The position numbers were made by a program, and so were the translations under genes. Below are positions 2,648 to 11,240 of a stretch of DNA of 15,576 bases, in pieces. This DNA comes from a bacterium (GTDB taxonomy: Bacteria; SZUA-79; Acidulodesulfobacterales; Acidulodesulfobacteraceae), in contig JAJYJN010000023.1 of the NCBI GenBank assembly GCA_021789455.1, positions 1 to 15,576 on the forward strand, written 5' to 3'. Each line of letters starts with the position of its first letter. Position 1 is the first letter of the stretch. The notes beneath the pieces were generated by a model that was not told where the DNA came from, searched no databases, and worked only from the letters and a program-made list of their open reading frames with translations.

Positions 2648-3838
2648 ATGGGTAAAAAGCACCAGACTCCGCTTCTTGACGAACTTAAAAAAGGGAAGTG
2701 GATAAGTTTCGTCAGAGAAATGGAAAGAGCGGCGGAGAAAAGCGAAAGAACCGAAGACCTTTTAGGTCAGGTTGAAGAATCTTACCACGACAAAGTAAAT
2801 CATTGGAAACACGGCGGTATGGCGGGCGTTAAGGGATACGGCGCCGGAATGGTCGGAAGATTCAGCGAATACCCCGATAAATATCCGGGAATAAAAGAAT
2901 GCCATTCTATGAGAATTATACCTTCTGCCGGTTTTTTCTATAACTCCGATTTTCTTAGAAAATTAGCCGATATTTCAGAAAAACATGCAGGCGGACTGTT
3001 AAACTTTCACGGAGCTACAGGAAATATTCAAATACTTGGAATGTCCCAGGCGGAAGCAGAAGATGTTTTTCAGGCAGTTGCAGAGCTAGGTTTCGATCTC
3101 GGCGGAAGCGGTTCGGATTTAAGAACGCCTTCATGCTGTGCGGGACAGGCAAGATGCGAATTTGCAAATTACGATACTATGAAGATTTGCCGCCATTTAA
3201 CGGAAGAATATTTGGACGAGCTCCACAGACCGGCGTTTAATTATAAATTTAAATTTAAATTTTCCGGATGCGCCAACGACTGCGTCGCTTCTGCGGCAAG
3301 ATCCGATCTTGCTTTCATAGGAACATGGAAAGACAAAATAAAAATCAAACAGGAAGAAGTAAAAAATTATAAAAAGAAATTCGACGTCCAAAAATACGTT
3401 CTCGATAAATGTCCGACAAAGTGCATGTGGTTTGAAGGGGAAAACCTTATTATAGACGACGAAAACTGCGTAAAATGCATGCACTGCATAAATGAACTTC
3501 CCAAAGCTCTTAAAGCCGGCGATGAAAGAGGCTGTTCTATTTTAATAGGAGCAAAAGCGCCTTTGGTTACCGGTCCGAGAATGGGAATGATGCTCGTTCC
3601 TTTTTACGACGTAAACGAAGATGCAAAGAACGATTATGAATGGATAAAATCCTTAATTTCCAATATGTGGGAATTCTGGGACGAATACGGAGTCAGCAGG
3701 GAAAGAATAGGAGAGCTTATAGGAAGGGTAGGATTAAATACATTCTTGGAAGGCATAGGATTAGAGCCTATTCCTGAAATGGTCGAACATCCGAGAAGTA
3801 ATCCGTTTATTAAATTTACCGAAGACGAAGAAGAATAG
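2648..3838 (+). CDS. dsrA: Dissimilatory sulfite reductase alpha subunit
   Basis: DsrA pairs with DsrB in a cytoplasmic alpha2-beta2 enzyme that reduces sulfite to the sulfide level at a siroheme-[4Fe-4S] centre. The 396-residue product has the coupled siroheme/cluster cysteines as C164-x5-C170 (in PSCCAGQARCEF) and C208-x3-C212 (SGCANDC). These are followed by a ferredoxin domain with CPTKC (255-259) and CVKCMHC (274-280). HWKHGG (52-57), LGGSGSDLRTP (151-161) and ELHRPAFNYKFKFKF (191-205) are family hallmarks. It is somewhat shorter than Desulfovibrio DsrA (about 437 residues), mainly near residues 30-38, where that protein has an extra loop. A strong Shine-Dalgarno AAGGAGG at 2635-2641 fixes the ATG start. 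It is the first gene after the promoter and is followed by dsrB after 61 bases. Dsr type (reductive) is inferred from the adjacent dsrD. Confidence 0.97.
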   Translation: MGKKHQTPLLDELKKGKWISFVREMERAAEKSERTEDLLGQVEESYHDKVNHWKHGGMAGVKGYGAGMVGRFSEYPDKYPGIKECHSMRIIPSAGFFYNSDFLRKLADISEKHAGGLLNFHGATGNIQILGMSQAEAEDVFQAVAELGFDLGGSGSDLRTPSCCAGQARCEFANYDTMKICRHLTEEYLDELHRPAFNYKFKFKFSGCANDCVASAARSDLAFIGTWKDKIKIKQEEVKNYKKKFDVQKYVLDKCPTKCMWFEGENLIIDDENCVKCMHCINELPKALKAGDERGCSILIGAKAPLVTGPRMGMMLVPFYDVNEDAKNDYEWIKSLISNMWEFWDEYGVSRERIGELIGRVGLNTFLEGIGLEPIPEMVEHPRSNPFIKFTEDEEE

Positions 3839-3889
3839 TCTTAAAATTAAAATATAATAATAATAATTTATAGCATTACATATAAATTT

Positions 3890-3894
3890 GGAGG
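3890..3894 (+). promoter_or_regulatory. Ribosome binding site that sets the dsrB start
   Basis: GGAGG lies 5 bases before the ATG at 3900. A longer open frame reaches back to a TTG at 3888, but that start would place this Shine-Dalgarno sequence inside the coding region and has none of its own, so ATG 3900 is preferred. Confidence 0.8.
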
Positions 3895-3899
3895 TTAAT

Positions 3900-4985
3900 A
3901 TGGCAGAAGAAGTTAAAAAGAAAAGACTTACCGATATTGGACCCCATGATTACAACGAATATTTGTCGCCGGTTATAAAAAATAATTACGGCAAATGGGC
4001 TTATCATGAGATTCTTGACCCAGGCACTATGGTGCACGTGGCGGAAAGCGGCGATAAACTATATACGGTGAGAATGGGTTCGCCTAGATTAGTCAGCGGC
4101 AGTTTCGTGAGGGATATTTGCGATATCGCCGATAAATACTGCGGCGGACACTTAAGATTTACGACAAGAAATAACGTTGAATTTTTAATAGAAGATGAAA
4201 AAAACGTCGAACCGCTTAAAAAAGACCTTGAAAAAATGGGATATAACGTAGGCGGCATAGGCAATATCGTTGCAAATATAGTTCATACTCAGGGATGGGT
4301 GCACTGCCACACTTCCGCAAGCGATGCATCTGGCGTCGTAAAGTCCGTTATGGACGAGTTGTATGAATATTTCGTCGAAGACAAACTTCCGTCAAAAGTA
4401 AGAATAGCGTTTGCCTGCTGTTTAAATATGTGCGGTTCTGTTTCGTCTTCGGACATAGCTATAGTAGGAACTCATAGAAAGCCGCCGAGAATCGACCTCG
4501 AAAGACTCAGAAATCTCTGCGAAATACCTAGTACCATTGCGGCATGTCCTACAAATTCAATCAGGCCTGATACCGTAGACGGTAAACCGGCAGTAAAAGT
4601 AAACGAAGAAACCTGCGTGTTCTGCGGAAGCTGTTATACGGTTTGTCCCGCTATGCCGATTGCTAACGCCGAAAACGACGGCTTATCGATTTGGGTCGGC
4701 GGAAAAGTATCCAATGCCAGAACTAAACCGACTTTCTCTAAATTAGCTATACCGTTTATTCCAAACGATCCTCCAAGATGGCCGGGAGTGGTAAACGCCG
4801 TTAAAACAATTCTTAACGAATATAAAAAAGGCGCAGAACCCGGTGAAAGAGTCGGCGAATGGATAGACAGGATAGGCTGGCCGAGATTCTTTAAGATTAC
4901 CGGATTCCCGTTCACGAAATATCATATCGACGATTTCAGGCTCGGCGAAACTACTATGAACTATTCTTCGCATGCCAGGCTGTAG
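3900..4985 (+). CDS. dsrB: Dissimilatory sulfite reductase beta subunit
   Basis: DsrB is the subunit carrying the catalytically active siroheme in the DsrAB enzyme and the docking surface for DsrC. From ATG 3900 it has 361 residues. The siroheme-cluster cysteines are visible as C136 in TQGWVHCHT, the CC pair 173-174 and C178 in [11 protein letters not shown] ferredoxin domain follows, with C206 ([10 protein letters not shown]), C219, C222, C225 and C229 ([15 protein letters not shown]). The C-terminal part ([17 protein letters not shown]) is typical of the family. All cluster ligands are present, so the enzyme should be functional. It lies between dsrA and dsrD with short spacers and no terminator, consistent with one dsrABD transcript. 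Confidence 0.97.
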
Positions 4986-5040: not shown

Positions 5041-5277
5041 ATGACTGATGAAACTAAAAAGAAAGTCGAAGATAAAATTTTAGGGCTTGTGACGGAATAT
5101 GCAGGAAAAAAAAGGTTCAAGCCGATAGATATCGTCAAAGAAATGGAAAAGGAGTTTGCAAGCGAAGCTTTAACTAAAGACGATATTAAAGGAGCATTAA
5201 AAGACTTAATGGATGATGAAAAACTTGTTTACGGATATGCAGGCGGCAGTTTCCTGACGCTTCCGGAAAACAAGTAA
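5041..5277 (+). CDS. dsrD: DsrD, small winged-helix activator of DsrAB
   Basis: This 78-residue protein is exactly the usual DsrD length and sits directly after dsrB, the canonical dsrABD order. The pattern of three helices, with a basic segment KKRFKPIDIVKEM and a C-terminal beta-wing (KLVYGYAGGSFLTL), agrees with the winged-helix fold known for DsrD. It contains no cysteine, so it is not redox-active. Once thought to bind DNA, DsrD has been shown in Desulfovibrio/Archaeoglobus systems to stimulate sulfite reduction by DsrAB. dsrD is a commonly used marker for the reductive direction of the Dsr pathway, although it also occurs in some sulfur disproportionators. Start ATG 5041 follows AGGAG (5028-5032). 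Identification rests on size, fold pattern and position, since sequence identity within the family is low. Confidence 0.88.
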   Translation: MTDETKKKVEDKILGLVTEYAGKKRFKPIDIVKEMEKEFASEALTKDDIKGALKDLMDDEKLVYGYAGGSFLTLPENK

Positions 5278-5399: not shown

Positions 5400-7112
5400 A
5401 TGCTTGAATTAAAAAAACCGAAAAAACCGGCAAAAATTGCGGCGAGTACTGGCGGCGGAATGTCTCAGTCGCCGTACAGACCTAAATACGTCGAAAAAAG
5501 ACCCCCTTGCATGGATACTTGTCCTAATGGAACAAAGGTTAGAGATTATATTCAGCTTATAGCGCAGAGCGAGTCTTACGACAGGCCTATAGACGACTCA
5601 TTAAAGCTGGCTTTTTATATGCTGACGGAGTCCAATCCTCTTCCTTCGACTACCGGAAGAGTATGTCCCCATCCATGTGAAGACGCATGCAACAGAAAAG
5701 AAAAAGATACGCCGGTAGCTATTAATGCTATAGAAATGTTTGTTGGAGATTACGGAATAAAAAATAATCTTCAGTATAAAAAATTAACCGAAGTTACAAG
5801 AAAAGAAAAAATTGCGATAATAGGAAGCGGTCCTGCAGGTTTATCTGCCGCATATCACCTTGCGTTAAGAGGCTATCAAGTCACTATTTTTGAAAAGTTT
5901 CCTGAAACAGGAGGATATTTAAGATATGGAATACCGCGTTTCAGACTGCCTTTAGATATTATAGATGCCGAGGTTCAGCGCATTAAGAATCTTGGCGTTG
6001 AAATTAAAACCGGCGTCAATATAGGCACTGATGTAACATTGGACAGCCTTAAGTCCGAGTATGATGCAATATTTATTGCCATAGGAACTCATGAACCTAT
6101 AAAAATGAAGATGAACGGCGCAGATTCTCCTAATGTTTATACCGGAATTGAATTTCTGCAGAAAGCGGCTTCCGGAGAACTTAAAGATGCCGGTAAAGAA
6201 GTGGTAGTTATCGGAAGCGACAGCGCAATGGATGCTGGAATGGTTGCAAAAAGACTCGGCGCCAACGTTACTTTTATATACAATAAAGGCACGGTTAACG
6301 ATGCATCCGAAATAGAAGAAAAAGGTTCTACGGAAGTAAAAGAAGGACACGCCGAGGGAATAAAATTCGAATTTTTATTTGCGCTCGACGAGATAGTTAC
6401 GGAAAACGGCAAAGCTGTTGCCGTAAAGCTTAAAAAAATGAAACTTTCGGAAAAAGATGCTTCGGGCAGGGTTCATCCTATAATAATAGAAGGCGGGCAG
6501 GAACTTAATTTAAAATTAGACACTTTAATATATTCTTTCGGTCAAAAGCCCGATTATAAAGGTTTAGAAAATCTGACTAAAAATCCGAATAACGAATTTT
6601 TAAAAGTTGACGATAATTATTTAGTCGCAGGCGAAGATAAAGTATTTGCCGGCGGCGATATATTAAGGTTCGGTCTCGTTACGGACGCTATAGGAATGGG
6701 AAGATATGCCGCATACGCTATACATAAAAAGTTTAGCGGAGAACAGGTTATTAACGACGAAAGAAGAGTTATAAAGTACGGCGACGCTGTAAACAGGGAA
6801 GGGAAAAATATGTATCTTGCGTATTTTCAGCCGGCCGAAAGAAAGAAGAGGACGTCCAGAGATCCTAAAGAAAGAGTTAAAGATTTTGAAGGCATTTTAA
6901 ACGACCTTAATTTCGACGAATTAGTTTCGGAAGTAAAGAGATGCATGAGCTGCGGATTATGCTTCGACTGCGGCAGCTGTTTCGAATACTGCTCGCAGAG
7001 CGCAGTTAAAAAATTGCCGAAAGGTCAGCATTTCGAGTTTCACCTTGAGACGTGCAACGGTTGCAAAAAATGCGCCGAAAGCTGTCCCTGCGGTTATATA
7101 GATATGCTGTAA
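5400..7112 (+). CDS. dsrL: DsrL-like iron-sulfur flavoprotein, NAD(P)H oxidoreductase partner of DsrAB
   Basis: A 570-residue protein of the glutamate-synthase beta-subunit (GltD) type with extra ferredoxin sites. Domains in order: an N-terminal Fe-S domain (C37, C41, C89, C93, C97); FAD-binding GSGPAG (142-147) with GGYLRYGIP (171-179); a second dinucleotide domain starting at VVVIGSDSAMDAG (268-280); FAD-closing FAGGD (416-420); and a cysteine-rich C-terminal ferredoxin region (C515, C518, C521, C524, C527, C531; C552, C555, C558, C562). This arrangement is that of DsrL, which passes electrons between NAD(P)(H) and DsrAB in Allochromatium. Linked to dsrD, it fits the DsrL-2 group of reducers and disproportionators. 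The pyridine-nucleotide motif is altered: GSDS replaces the usual GGGN, and the arginine pair expected after IY is NK (295-296). The start codon has only a weak GGGA Shine-Dalgarno. Other GltD-like oxidoreductases are the alternative. Confidence 0.82.
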   Translation: MLELKKPKKPAKIAASTGGGMSQSPYRPKYVEKRPPCMDTCPNGTKVRDYIQLIAQSESYDRPIDDSLKLAFYMLTESNPLPSTTGRVCPHPCEDACNRKEKDTPVAINAIEMFVGDYGIKNNLQYKKLTEVTRKEKIAIIGSGPAGLSAAYHLALRGYQVTIFEKFPETGGYLRYGIPRFRLPLDIIDAEVQRIKNLGVEIKTGVNIGTDVTLDSLKSEYDAIFIAIGTHEPIKMKMNGADSPNVYTGIEFLQKAASGELKDAGKEVVVIGSDSAMDAGMVAKRLGANVTFIYNKGTVNDASEIEEKGSTEVKEGHAEGIKFEFLFALDEIVTENGKAVAVKLKKMKLSEKDASGRVHPIIIEGGQELNLKLDTLIYSFGQKPDYKGLENLTKNPNNEFLKVDDNYLVAGEDKVFAGGDILRFGLVTDAIGMGRYAAYAIHKKFSGEQVINDERRVIKYGDAVNREGKNMYLAYFQPAERKKRTSRDPKERVKDFEGILNDLNFDELVSEVKRCMSCGLCFDCGSCFEYCSQSAVKKLPKGQHFEFHLETCNGCKKCAESCPCGYIDML

Positions 7113-7188: not shown

Positions 7189-7530
7189 ATGGCAAGTTTT
7201 GTTTATAACGGAAAAACGATAGAAACGGATGACGAAGGTTACCTTCAGAATCTTGGAGATTGGGACAAAGGTCTTGCTGAAGTTCTTGCGAAACAGGAAA
7301 ATGTAGAATTAACCGAAAAACACTGGAAATTAATTGAATGGATAAGGGATTACTTTCAGAAATTTCAGGTTGCGCCTGCTATTAAATCGCTGACGAAAGA
7401 AGTCATGAGCCTTGAAAATTTACCGGACAAAAAAGAAGCAAATAAATTCATTTATGAATTATTTCCCGAAGGCCCGGCAAAACAGCTTGCAAAAATATCG
7501 GGTCTTCCAAAACCGACAGGCTGCGTTTAA
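7189..7530 (+). CDS. dsrC: DsrC/TusE-family sulfur carrier with a single cysteine
   Basis: The 113-residue product ends in the family signature GLPKPTGCV, with CysA as the penultimate residue (C112, codon 7522-7524). In DsrC proper a second cysteine, CysB, lies 11 residues earlier; here that position is Ala101 (GCA, 7489-7491), and C112 is the only cysteine in the protein. Between VAPAI (61-65) and YELFP (89-93) it is about 9 residues longer than Desulfovibrio DsrC, an insertion also seen in E. coli TusE. IETDDEGYL and GPAKQLAKISGLPKP also resemble TusE. It can therefore carry a persulfide but cannot form the intramolecular CysA-CysB trisulfide used by DsrAB/DsrMK. By position, between dsrL and dsrM, it is the cluster's dsrC; by sequence it is closer to TusE. 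GGAGG at 7178-7182 supports the ATG. Confidence 0.85.
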   Translation: MASFVYNGKTIETDDEGYLQNLGDWDKGLAEVLAKQENVELTEKHWKLIEWIRDYFQKFQVAPAIKSLTKEVMSLENLPDKKEANKFIYELFPEGPAKQLAKISGLPKPTGCV

Positions 7531-8466: not shown

Positions 8467-9954
8467 ATGGCTAAGCCGAAAAGTAAATATAAAGTACCGG
8501 TATTGGACGGAAAGATTTCAATACCGAAGATAGTTCCCGGAGCATCTTCATATGAACATATGATAGAAGCACAGAAAGAAGATATGGAAGCGCTGGGCTT
8601 TCCTGCGAAACTGCAAGACGGATGGAAGGATAAAGCTCTTGGGGTGTTTAAAGAGATACTAGACCATAATAAAGCTGTAAGAGATTATATGGACATATGC
8701 GTCAGGTGCGGCGCGTGCACCGATAAATGCCAGTTTTTCCTCGGAACGTCGGACCCTAATAATATGCCCGTACAAAGACAGGAGTTAATGAGAAAGGTTT
8801 ACAGATATTATTTTACTCCGTCGGGATTTTTTAAAAGTCTTTCCAATGCACAGGAATTAACCGAAGAAGTTTTGAAGGAGTGGTATACGTATTTTTGGCA
8901 GTGTTCGGAATGCAGGAGGTGTTCGCTCTACTGTCCTTACGGCATAGATACGGCAGAAATAACTATGGCGGCAAGACAGATTATGGATTCCATAGGTCTT
9001 GGACAAAAATACACTACCGAAGTTATTCATAAAGTTTTCGTGACCGGAAATAATATAGGAATCCCGCCAGCCGCTTTAAGAAACACTCTTGACGACTTGG
9101 AAGAAGAAATAGAAGAAGAAGGCGGAAAAGGCGTAAAAATTCCTATGGACGTAGAAGGAGCGGAAGTTTTGCTTGTTCCCCCGTCGGCTGATTTTTTTGC
9201 TATGCCGCATATGGAATCTTTGAAAGGATATGCAAAAGTGTTTCATAAAGCAGGTATAAGCTATACTGTTTCTTCGTATGCATCCGAAGCGGGTAATTTC
9301 GGAAAGTTTATAGGAAGCTATCAAAACACCAAAGAAATCAATAAAAGGATATGGGATGAGGCAAGAAGGCTTAAAGTAAAGAGAGTAATTATAGGAGAAT
9401 GCGGACATGCATGGAGAGCGGCATATATGTATTCCAATACTATGAACGGACCCTTCGATTTTCTCGATTCAAAATATAAACAGCCTACCCATATTTGCGA
9501 TTTTACTTTAGGACTTGTAAAAGATGGAGTTATAAAGCTCGATCCAACCGCAAACGACGATAAAGTCGTTACGTTCCACGATTCTTGCAACGTAGCGAGA
9601 GGTTCCAGAATAGGCGACGTTGTAGGAGGTCAATTTACCATACCGAGAGAATTGATAAAAGCCGCCGCAAATAAATTCGTAGAATTAAGGGAAGGCACTA
9701 CTAAAGAAAGCACTTTTTGCTGCGGCGCAGGCGGCGGACTATTGACGGAAGAAGTAATGAACGTCAGGCTGGCAGGTTCTATGCCGAGAATGCAGACTGT
9801 TAAAGAAGCAGTAGATAATCATGGAGTAAATTTTTACGCCTTGATTTGCGCAATATGCAAAACTCAGTTTTCCAAAGTATTCCCGTTGTACGGTTTAGAT
9901 GCCGAAATGGTCGGCGGTATTCATCAGTTAGTCAGCAACGCTATAATAATGTAG
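8467..9954 (+). CDS. dsrK: DsrK, HdrD-like catalytic iron-sulfur subunit of DsrMK
   Basis: DsrK resembles heterodisulfide reductase subunit HdrD and is the cytoplasmic subunit believed to reduce the sulfur-loaded DsrC. The 495-residue product has two ferredoxin-type [4Fe-4S] motifs, C78-C81-C84-C88 (CVRCGACTDKC) and C146-C149-C152-C156 (CSECRRCSLYC). A CCG-type domain for a special catalytic cluster follows: C312 in GECGHAWRA, C374 in FHDSCNVARGSR, C418-C419 in CCGAGGG, and C461/C464 in CAICK. All expected cysteines are present, so the heterodisulfide-type site appears intact, although the DsrC-like partner here lacks one cysteine. GGAGG at 8452-8456 precedes the ATG. The gene is followed by the repeat-bearing gap before dsrE. 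Confidence 0.95.
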   Translation: MAKPKSKYKVPVLDGKISIPKIVPGASSYEHMIEAQKEDMEALGFPAKLQDGWKDKALGVFKEILDHNKAVRDYMDICVRCGACTDKCQFFLGTSDPNNMPVQRQELMRKVYRYYFTPSGFFKSLSNAQELTEEVLKEWYTYFWQCSECRRCSLYCPYGIDTAEITMAARQIMDSIGLGQKYTTEVIHKVFVTGNNIGIPPAALRNTLDDLEEEIEEEGGKGVKIPMDVEGAEVLLVPPSADFFAMPHMESLKGYAKVFHKAGISYTVSSYASEAGNFGKFIGSYQNTKEINKRIWDEARRLKVKRVIIGECGHAWRAAYMYSNTMNGPFDFLDSKYKQPTHICDFTLGLVKDGVIKLDPTANDDKVVTFHDSCNVARGSRIGDVVGGQFTIPRELIKAAANKFVELREGTTKESTFCCGAGGGLLTEEVMNVRLAGSMPRMQTVKEAVDNHGVNFYALICAICKTQFSKVFPLYGLDAEMVGGIHQLVSNAIIM

Positions 9955-10123: not shown

Positions 10124-10474
10124 ATGAAATTCGGCATTCTTATTAAAGAAGGCCCTTATATGCATCAGGCTATGGACACAGCCTATAATTTTATATTAGC
10201 GGCTATGGAAAGCGGGCATGAAATAACGGGCATATTTTTTTATAACGACGGAGTTTATAACAGATGTGCGACGCTTGAACCGCCGAGAGACGAAAGAAAT
10301 ATTATGAAACTCCTTACGGAATTAGAATTGAAAGGAGTCAGATTAATAGTCTGCGTTGCGGCTGGAAAAAGAAGAGGCATAGTCAATCAGACAGTATGTA
10401 AAGTGGAAGAAATATCCGGACTGGGACAACTGTTAGAACTGTGCATAACATCCGACAGAACTATAACTTTTTAA
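10124..10474 (+). CDS. dsrE: DsrE (TusD-like) sulfurtransferase subunit
   Basis: A 116-residue member of the DsrE/TusD family, the catalytic subunit of the cytoplasmic DsrE2F2H2 hexamer, which accepts persulfide sulfur and passes it to DsrC/TusE. The active-site cysteine is C77 in CVAAGKRRGI (77-86), equivalent to TusD/DsrE Cys78. Other signatures are FFYNDGVYN (38-46) and the C-terminal GLGQLLELCITSDRTITF. It carries three further cysteines (C48, C92, C107), so chemistry beyond C77 cannot be excluded. AGGGGAGGAA around 10110 supports ATG 10124. dsrF and dsrH follow with short gaps (39 and 52 bases). In classical terms dsrEFH marks sulfur oxidisers, which makes its presence in a dsrD-bearing cluster noteworthy. 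Confidence 0.92.
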   Translation: MKFGILIKEGPYMHQAMDTAYNFILAAMESGHEITGIFFYNDGVYNRCATLEPPRDERNIMKLLTELELKGVRLIVCVAAGKRRGIVNQTVCKVEEISGLGQLLELCITSDRTITF

Positions 10475-10513: not shown

Positions 10514-10888
10514 ATGTCAGAACAAGAAAAAACTAAAGTTATGTTTGTATGCAGAACCGCTCCGTACGGTACTATATACGAACAGGAAGCTATAGAAGCC
10601 ATGGTTATGTTCGGCGCATACGAACAGGATATAAGCGTAACATTTACCGGAGACGGAGTATTTTCGTTGAAAAAAGGGCAGGATACTTCACTTCTGGGAA
10701 AGAAAAATTTTTCAATGACTTATCCTATATTAATAGACGACTTTGAAATTTCGCATATATACGTAGAAAAAGAGTCTCTCGAAGAAAGAGGTATGTCCGA
10801 AAGCGATCTTGCTACCGAAGTTGAGATAATAGACAGAAATACATTGAAGCAAAAGATGAGAGAAATGAAAGCGTTACTGCCGTTTTAA
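10514..10888 (+). CDS. dsrF: DsrF (TusC-like) subunit of DsrEFH
   Basis: A 124-residue protein of the DsrF/TusC family with the signature CRTAPYGTIYEQEAIE (13-28) and FTGDGVFSLKKGQD (44-57), followed by the expected DDFEISHIYVE strand region (70-80). It contributes to the heterohexamer with DsrE and DsrH; in TusBCD the sulfur-carrying cysteine is in TusD, and TusC is structural. One cysteine (C13) precedes the family motif. AAGGAGCC at 10500-10507 is the ribosome binding site. It is the middle gene of the dsrEFH set and is about the normal family length. Confidence 0.9.
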   Translation: MSEQEKTKVMFVCRTAPYGTIYEQEAIEAMVMFGAYEQDISVTFTGDGVFSLKKGQDTSLLGKKNFSMTYPILIDDFEISHIYVEKESLEERGMSESDLATEVEIIDRNTLKQKMREMKALLPF

Positions 10889-10940: not shown

Positions 10941-11240
10941 GTGCTGCACATAGTAAAAAAATCTCCGTACGAATCTTCCGCATTCAGCGATGCGATAAAC
11001 TACATAGAGCAAAACGATATAATGCTTTTAACCGAAGACGGAATATATGCCGCAAAAAAAGGCGGAAAATTTGAAGGAGCGTTAAAAAACCTTATGCAAA
11101 AAAATGCCGTTTACTGTCTTATAGCCGATATAAAAGCAAGAGGAATTCAGGAAAGCGAAATAATAGAAAACGTAAAAGTAATAGATTATAAAGGCTTTGT
11201 AGAAAAAGTTACCGAACATAATCCGATGACATGGGCGTAA
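10941..11240 (+). CDS. dsrH: DsrH (TusB-like) subunit of DsrEFH
   Basis: A 99-residue DsrH/TusB-family protein. It opens with MLHIVKKSPYES (the LHTV-x-SP family start), has TEDGIYAAKKGG (31-42), and ends with VIDYKGFVEKVTEHNPMTWA, which matches the TusB ending IDYTDFV...HPSQMAW. The start is GTG at 10941, fixed by AAGGAGG at 10925-10931. The cysteine reported near position 20 of Allochromatium DsrH is absent, as in E. coli TusB; the only cysteine is C59. This, like the single-cysteine DsrC homologue, places the set nearer the Tus relay than the sulfur-oxidation form. It ends the dsrEFH unit; an 88-base gap with a possible promoter follows. Confidence 0.88.
   Translation: MLHIVKKSPYESSAFSDAINYIEQNDIMLLTEDGIYAAKKGGKFEGALKNLMQKNAVYCLIADIKARGIQESEIIENVKVIDYKGFVEKVTEHNPMTWA

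Follow-up and report, generated by a model that had tools for sequence, protein, structure and literature searches.

DsrC is told apart from its relative TusE by an arm with two cysteines, and in the trisulfide model this arm is tied to the way sulfate and sulfite reducers conserve energy. A canonical DsrC has CysA as its penultimate residue and CysB eleven residues before it, and it is encoded with and following DsrAB. CysB is described in PMC3397948 as strictly conserved in organisms with a sulfur-based energy metabolism. The same paper describes that sulfur and sulfite bind only CysA of A. vinosum DsrC, that CysB is needed neither to accept sulfur from DsrE nor for the binding of DsrEFH, and that transfer needs only CysA. 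DsrC proteins with a single cysteine are known from phages, where they are regarded as likely TusE (PMC8190135).

The DsrC studied here is encoded in a window (the whole stretch of DNA analysed) of 15,576 nucleotides from a bacterium of the Acidulodesulfobacterales. Its best solved relative is A. vinosum DsrC (1yx3; 126.8 bits, fold TMq 0.81), a long, oxidative-type protein that shares with it CysA, the KPTGCV end and most of a longer region at residues 61–93. A. vinosum DsrC has CysB with Ala before it, however, whereas the window's protein has Leu-Ala at these positions and two extra residues. The reductive-type DsrC of D. vulgaris (2v4j_C) differs by having CysB and by lacking nine residues of the 61–93 region. 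E. coli TusE resembles the window's DsrC in its one cysteine at CysA, its lack of CysB and its TusBCD/DsrEFH-type partner genes, but has Thr at CysB, Ala before it and no residues 76–77.

Earlier work describes the lineages treated here, with their mixed sets of dsr genes (PMC6776010, PMC7596348, PMC10504309, PMC10591310). Judged by titles and the start of abstracts, the papers found in our searches held no report of a missing CysB in these bacteria, and the word 'cysteine' occurs nowhere in the main text of PMC10504309 and PMC10591310. Florentino 2019 and Venceslau 2014 fell outside the scope of this search, so the missing CysB may have been noticed earlier; the content of Florentino 2019 (PMC6378623) is taken second-hand from what PMC10504309, PMC9751629 and PMC10591310 say of it.

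The dsr cluster of the window

The window carries dsrN, dsrA, dsrB, dsrD, dsrL, dsrC, dsrM, dsrK, dsrE, dsrF, dsrH, sat, aprB and aprA in one direction (Table 1). The products of dsrA, dsrB, dsrK and dsrEFH passed the curated cut-offs, while that of dsrM did not. The names dsrN, dsrD, dsrL, sat and apr are assigned from Pfam or NCBIfam matches where present, together with known or published operon content. An operon with dsrAB, dsrD, dsrL and dsrEFH is described for Ca. Acidulodesulfobacterales in PMC6776010, which also names dsrD for this group, and the content of the window agrees with it. Ca. Acididesulfobacter diazotrophicus has the same dsr genes, with a DsrB 85% identical to the window's. 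The nearest relative of the window is genome G001 (54% of sampled 31-letter words in common; completeness 100), whose one DsrC-family gene also encodes a single cysteine. The translation of the window's dsrL contains YNK. According to PMC7596348, YNK replaces the YRR motif of DsrL-2 in these genera; the NADP(H) preference of this DsrL is therefore uncertain.

Table 1. Genes and codons of the dsr cluster, with positions in the window
Feature	Position	Strand	Basis
dsrA	2648..3838	+	TIGR02064, 487.8 bits, over cut-off
dsrB	3888..4985	+	TIGR02066, 496.3 bits, over cut-off
dsrD	5041..5277	+	Position and similarity among relatives; no NCBIfam match
dsrL	5400..7112	+	NAD(P)-binding, PRK12771 family; NF009410, 537.1 bits; name from PMC6776010, PMC7596348
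dsrC, single-cysteine, 113 aa	7189..7530	+	TIGR03342, 135.1 bits; PF04358, 133.6 bits
dsrC codons 76–77, two residues within the longer 61–93 region	7414..7419	+	Alignment; present only in single-cysteine dsr-type rows
dsrC codon 100, CTT (Leu)	7486..7488	+	Codon read; alignment of single- and two-cysteine rows
dsrC codon 101, GCA (Ala at the CysB position)	7489..7491	+	Translation, alignment, codon comparison
dsrC codon 112, TGC (CysA, only cysteine)	7522..7524	+	Translation, codon comparison
dsrM, 253 aa	7636..8397	+	Top match is DsrM model NF038037, 104 bits, under cut-off of 300
dsrK, CCG-type cysteines ending CxxC	8467..9954	+	NF045796, 528.9 bits, over cut-off
dsrE/tusD, conserved Cys77	10124..10474	+	TIGR03012, 103.5 bits
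dsrF/tusC	10514..10888	+	TIGR03010, 106.3 bits
dsrH/tusB, Ala at residue 18	10941..11240	+	TIGR03011, 87.7 bits

A DsrC with one cysteine

The DsrC of the window ends in GPAKQLAKISGLPKPTGCV. It clears the cut-offs of TIGR03342 (53.5 bits) and PF04358 (24.9 bits), and hence belongs to the TusE/DsrC/DsvC superfamily. Its penultimate residue is CysA (C112), and its gene shares a cluster with dsrA and dsrB and tracks dsrB across the class, but eleven residues before CysA it has Ala101, which aligns to the CysB column of 1yx3. Translation and this alignment thus confirmed the initial annotation, which had read Ala at CysB and C112 as the only cysteine. With one cysteine per molecule, an intramolecular trisulfide between CysA and CysB is impossible; the earlier statement that a one-cysteine DsrC cannot form the trisulfide holds for this intramolecular bridge. 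An AlphaFold2 model of the protein (pLDDT 89.9) has the DsrC fold, with A. vinosum DsrC as its best PDB match. In the model A101 lies within the last helix (96–103), and the C-terminal tip is poorly fixed.

The 61–93 region had also been described as about nine residues longer than in Desulfovibrio and as a TusE-type insertion. The length was borne out by nine gap positions in the alignment to 2v4j_C, whereas the attribution to TusE did not hold: seven of the nine positions are present in the two-cysteine DsrC of A. vinosum, so the insertion is no marker of TusE. Two other features did separate the single-cysteine proteins. Residues 76–77 were filled in 31/31 single-cysteine dsr-type rows of the alignment and in none of the 65 other rows, which include E. 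coli TusE. Position 100 was Leu in the same 31 rows and Ala in all 57 two-cysteine rows of a larger row set. Among dsrB-anchored loci, it was likewise Leu in 22/22 single-cysteine rows and Ala in the 32/32 two-cysteine rows long enough to align.

CysB is absent from the DsrC matches of the class

We searched 30 genomes of the window's class with the PF04358 profile. DsrC was found in 23 of them, with 26 matches in total, of which 25 had a complete C terminus (the match in L126 is cut). All 25 complete-ended matches lacked CysB and had Leu-Ala at positions 100–101, and no two-cysteine DsrC occurred among them. The same search recovered the two-cysteine DsrC in both comparison genomes (G018, G019). 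Among the best 80 of 427 dsrB-anchored loci plus the window, 55 of the 81 had a complete-ended dsrC, 22 with a single cysteine and 33 with two. A pattern read of the CysB residue in 180 collected proteins gave Cys 148 times, Ala 20 times and Val 10 times, with two proteins not read; one listing of matches covered 120 of 1524.

Across 19 Acidulodesulfobacterales rows, codon 101 was GCA, GCT or GCC, so that Ala was retained in every row. Over 38 unsaturated pairs the dN/dS of dsrC had a median of 0.06 and a maximum of 0.13; pairs with dS <=0.05 or >=1.5, or saturated, are omitted from the median, and many pairs were saturated. The state without CysB is thus conserved under purifying selection. 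A sequencing error, judged unlikely from the start, is ruled out by the 25 class matches and by the retention of Ala while its codon varies; in the window itself, GCA differs from the cysteine codons TGC and TGT at all three bases. The DsrC without CysB is a real and conserved departure from the DsrC rule.

The initial annotation had offered a canonical DsrC elsewhere in the genome as one explanation. The class genomes are draft assemblies, in which such a gene could have been missed, but none was found among the 25 class matches (23 genomes) or among 11 matches in the Desulfurella order (8 of the 19 genomes searched), which include those of D. acetivorans (a complete-genome record) and of D. 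amilsii. Since the search finds the two-cysteine form where it is present, we consider a missed second DsrC extremely improbable.

Carriage of the dsr module varies within the class. DsrC and dsrB occurred together in 23 of the 30 genomes, dsrB alone in one (G033, with a partial dsrB), DsrC alone in none, and neither in six. DsrE was found in the same 23 genomes as DsrC. MnmA was found in 27 genomes, including all six without dsrB and DsrC. These six (G021–G025 and G044; completeness 86–99) had no match to dsrB, DsrC or DsrE.

Desulfurella and Deferribacterales

The absence of CysB extends beyond the class. In the Desulfurella order, dsrB and a dsr-type single-cysteine DsrC were found in the same four of 19 genomes (G002, G004, G049, G050). 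Comparison of the C-terminal motif, as the initial annotation had proposed, gave Leu-Ala in the class and Val at CysB in the dsr-type DsrC of the Desulfurella order and of two Deferribacterales MAGs; the proteins with Val include those of D. acetivorans, a Desulfurellaceae MAG and UBA4806 (Deferribacterales). The Desulfurella and UBA4806 proteins are otherwise like the window's, with Leu100, a place in the same clade and a dsr cluster around the gene, but their dsr loci carry no window-type dsrEFH.

Genome G049, which we infer to be Desulfurella amilsii TR1, encodes two DsrC-family proteins, neither with CysB, in agreement with the two DsrC genes listed for this strain (PMC5317093). Its dsrA, dsrB, dsrD, dsrL, dsrC, dsrM and dsrK are each one open frame. 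D. amilsii is a cultured thiosulfate respirer, and PMC10504309 states that DsrAB seems to be involved in its thiosulfate respiration.

A second, short DsrC-family paralogue, with Ala at CysB, was found in seven of the 19 Desulfurella-order genomes (L097, L134, L139, L133 and L136–L138), four of which have no dsrB. Several of these loci adjoin a small DsrE-like frame.

In the order of UBA4806, dsrB was found in one of 45 genomes (G003) and DsrC above the cut-off in two (G003, G109), both with a single cysteine. In G109, 86 bases separate dsrC from the contig end on the flank that carries dsrAB in G003. Sub-cut-off PF04358 matches in G085 and G092 were LexA-like by eye and were rejected as DsrC. 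Unlike the window, the UBA4806 locus (L146) also carries DsrJ, and it has two separate DsrM/DsrK-like pairs beside the single-cysteine DsrC. A tie between the absence of CysB and the absence of DsrJOP is ruled out by this DsrJ; neither the absence of DsrJOP nor the presence of DsrL is constant across the single-cysteine clade.

Relationship to TusE

We calculated an unrooted tree from a selection of 96 rows, among them 26 of the 65 proteins P0020–P0083 and later P ids, and from 111 columns, omitting columns 100–101. The 31 dsr-type single-cysteine rows fell on one side of a branch with support 96/84, adjoined by the six short paralogues (92/84), and E. coli TusE fell outside. Placement in such a tree had been suggested by the initial annotation; it left E. 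coli TusE outside the clade, but not firmly so, because forcing TusE together with the 31 rows cost 1.87 log units (AU p 0.446, or 0.401 when P0075 was included too). Hence the tree does not exclude kinship of the single-cysteine DsrC with TusE. A single change of the one- or two-cysteine label suffices in the best tree. The tree gives that change no direction, but in the published rooting of DsrC, as presented in PMC10504309, these lineages are basal on the oxidative side. Of the earlier claim that CysB was lost, the absence is therefore certain and the loss likely.

The protein could be a TusE supplying MnmA in tRNA thiolation, with its place in the dsr cluster due to chance. Such a role would fit the one cysteine at CysA, the TusBCD/DsrEFH-type genes nearby, the result of the tree and the database names of the relatives P0003 and P0019, members of the clade that already bear the name of a tRNA 2-thiouridine protein. 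However, the window's protein scored 107.8 bits against a cut-off of 191 for the TusE equivalog model NF008562, and E. coli TusE lacks both Leu100 and residues 76–77. Moreover, the gene tracks dsrB and not mnmA, unlike TusE: the six class genomes that lack dsrB all have MnmA but no DsrC, and DsrC without dsrB occurred in none of the 30. A tRNA role is unlikely on this pattern, and we regard the protein as very improbably a TusE. The single-cysteine lineage, two members of which already bear such a name, calls for caution with the CxxxxxxxxxxC filter that separates DsrC from TusE-like proteins (used in PMC8190135).

Partner proteins and a possible single-thiol route

The single-cysteine protein is very likely the Dsr pathway's own working DsrC. 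The intact set of dsr genes in G049 supports a role in the pathway. Against this counts that the genes lie in one operon, so that the shared pattern of DsrC, dsrB and DsrE shows joint gain or loss and independence from MnmA rather than a fine functional link, and would be expected even if the protein had another role with sulfur.

How such a DsrC would work is less certain. We tentatively favour a direct persulfide route on CysA, the second alternative of the initial annotation, and hold it at a little under even likelihood. In sulfite reduction, DsrAB would hand sulfur to CysA as a persulfide (DsrC-S-SH), and the loaded arm would then depart from DsrAB. DsrK, alone or with an outside thiol, would use its HdrB-like cluster site to reduce the persulfide, freeing sulfide without forming a trisulfide bridge. 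DsrE is a further candidate for loading CysA in the window's group, by the transfer known from A. vinosum. Since A. vinosum uses CysA alone for sulfur uptake, the CysA-dependent half of the cycle would be intact here, whereas the half that needs the intramolecular bridge would not. DsrK retains the CCG-type cysteines ending CxxC, and Cys77 of DsrE was Cys in 19/19 aligned rows. The published trisulfide model, which rests on two cysteines, counts against a single-thiol DsrC. The full proposal, that the pathway's own DsrC acts with DsrAB and DsrMK in single-thiol form through CysA alone, is thus put forward tentatively, as nearly as likely to be right as wrong.

A compensating cysteine in a partner would offer another solution. 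CysA could form a disulfide or trisulfide in trans, the other thiol coming from another DsrC molecule, from a low-molecular-weight compound or from a partner cysteine. DsrMK would reduce it in the manner of the methanogen heterodisulfide, and the published chemistry would be retained with one change. In DsrK, Cys344 was present in 19/19 and Cys464 in 18/18 ungapped single-cysteine rows, but they also occurred in 11 and 6 of 28 two-cysteine loci, respectively. No cysteine of DsrA, DsrB, DsrD, DsrL, DsrM or DsrK was both fixed in the single-cysteine loci and absent from two-cysteine loci; residue 118 of DsrM, for example, was Cys in 14/21. Several cysteines of DsrE, DsrF and DsrH were typical of the window's group, among them an extra Cys13 of DsrF in 15/16 rows, but this comparison is based on three two-cysteine loci only. 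The short one-thiol paralogue of Desulfurella species might serve as the second thiol there, but it was absent from the matches in the class genomes searched. Cys76 of the Desulfurella and UBA4806 DsrC was rejected as a replacement thiol, as it is absent from 20/22 single-cysteine loci. We consider a second thiol in trans unlikely.

A bypass is rather less probable still. Here DsrAB, fed by DsrL with NAD(P)H, would reduce further without a DsrC bridge, and DsrC would be only a regulator or a sulfur relay to or from DsrEFH. The position of dsrL immediately upstream of dsrC in the window suits such a route, as does the activity of Desulfurella DsrL-2 with NADPH described in PMC7596348. Yet the DsrMK genes remain beside dsrC, and G003 (UBA4806) combines a single-cysteine DsrC and dsrB with a dsr locus that has no dsrL. 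The best DsrL match in that genome (228 bits at 35%) is at the level of the non-DsrL paralogues in G001, and thus no close DsrL was found there.

Should the direct persulfide route be correct, a complete energy-conserving Dsr sulfite reduction in three bacterial lineages and a cultured thiosulfate respirer would run on a one-thiol persulfide carrier; the DsrC trisulfide would not be obligatory, and DsrK could act on a persulfide. This wider conclusion is somewhat less likely than not. A lineage with DsrAB and DsrMK in which no CysB was found amounts to a natural mutant with which the need for the trisulfide can be probed. Laboratory work on this point is feasible, as D. amilsii has been cultured and, according to PMC7596348, its DsrL-2 has already been produced and characterised.

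Residue 18 of DsrH was Ala in nine and Cys in three of 14 single-cysteine rows, and Cys in 3/3 two-cysteine rows. By our own inference it may be equivalent to Cys20 of A. vinosum DsrH; according to PMC3397948, sulfur oxidation in vivo depends on that cysteine there, whereas transfer does not. If the two are equivalent, Ala18 disfavours oxidation of the A. vinosum kind in the window's organism.

The dsr genes of Desulfurella acetivorans

PMC5317093 reports that D. acetivorans is unable to respire thiosulfate and that its genome lacks dsrC and DsrMK subunits. In strain A63, dsrL is spread over three open frames (L022:11317–12727) and dsrK over two (L022:13892–15395). Its dsrM is intact, and so is dsrC, which is present in the genome, contrary to that report.
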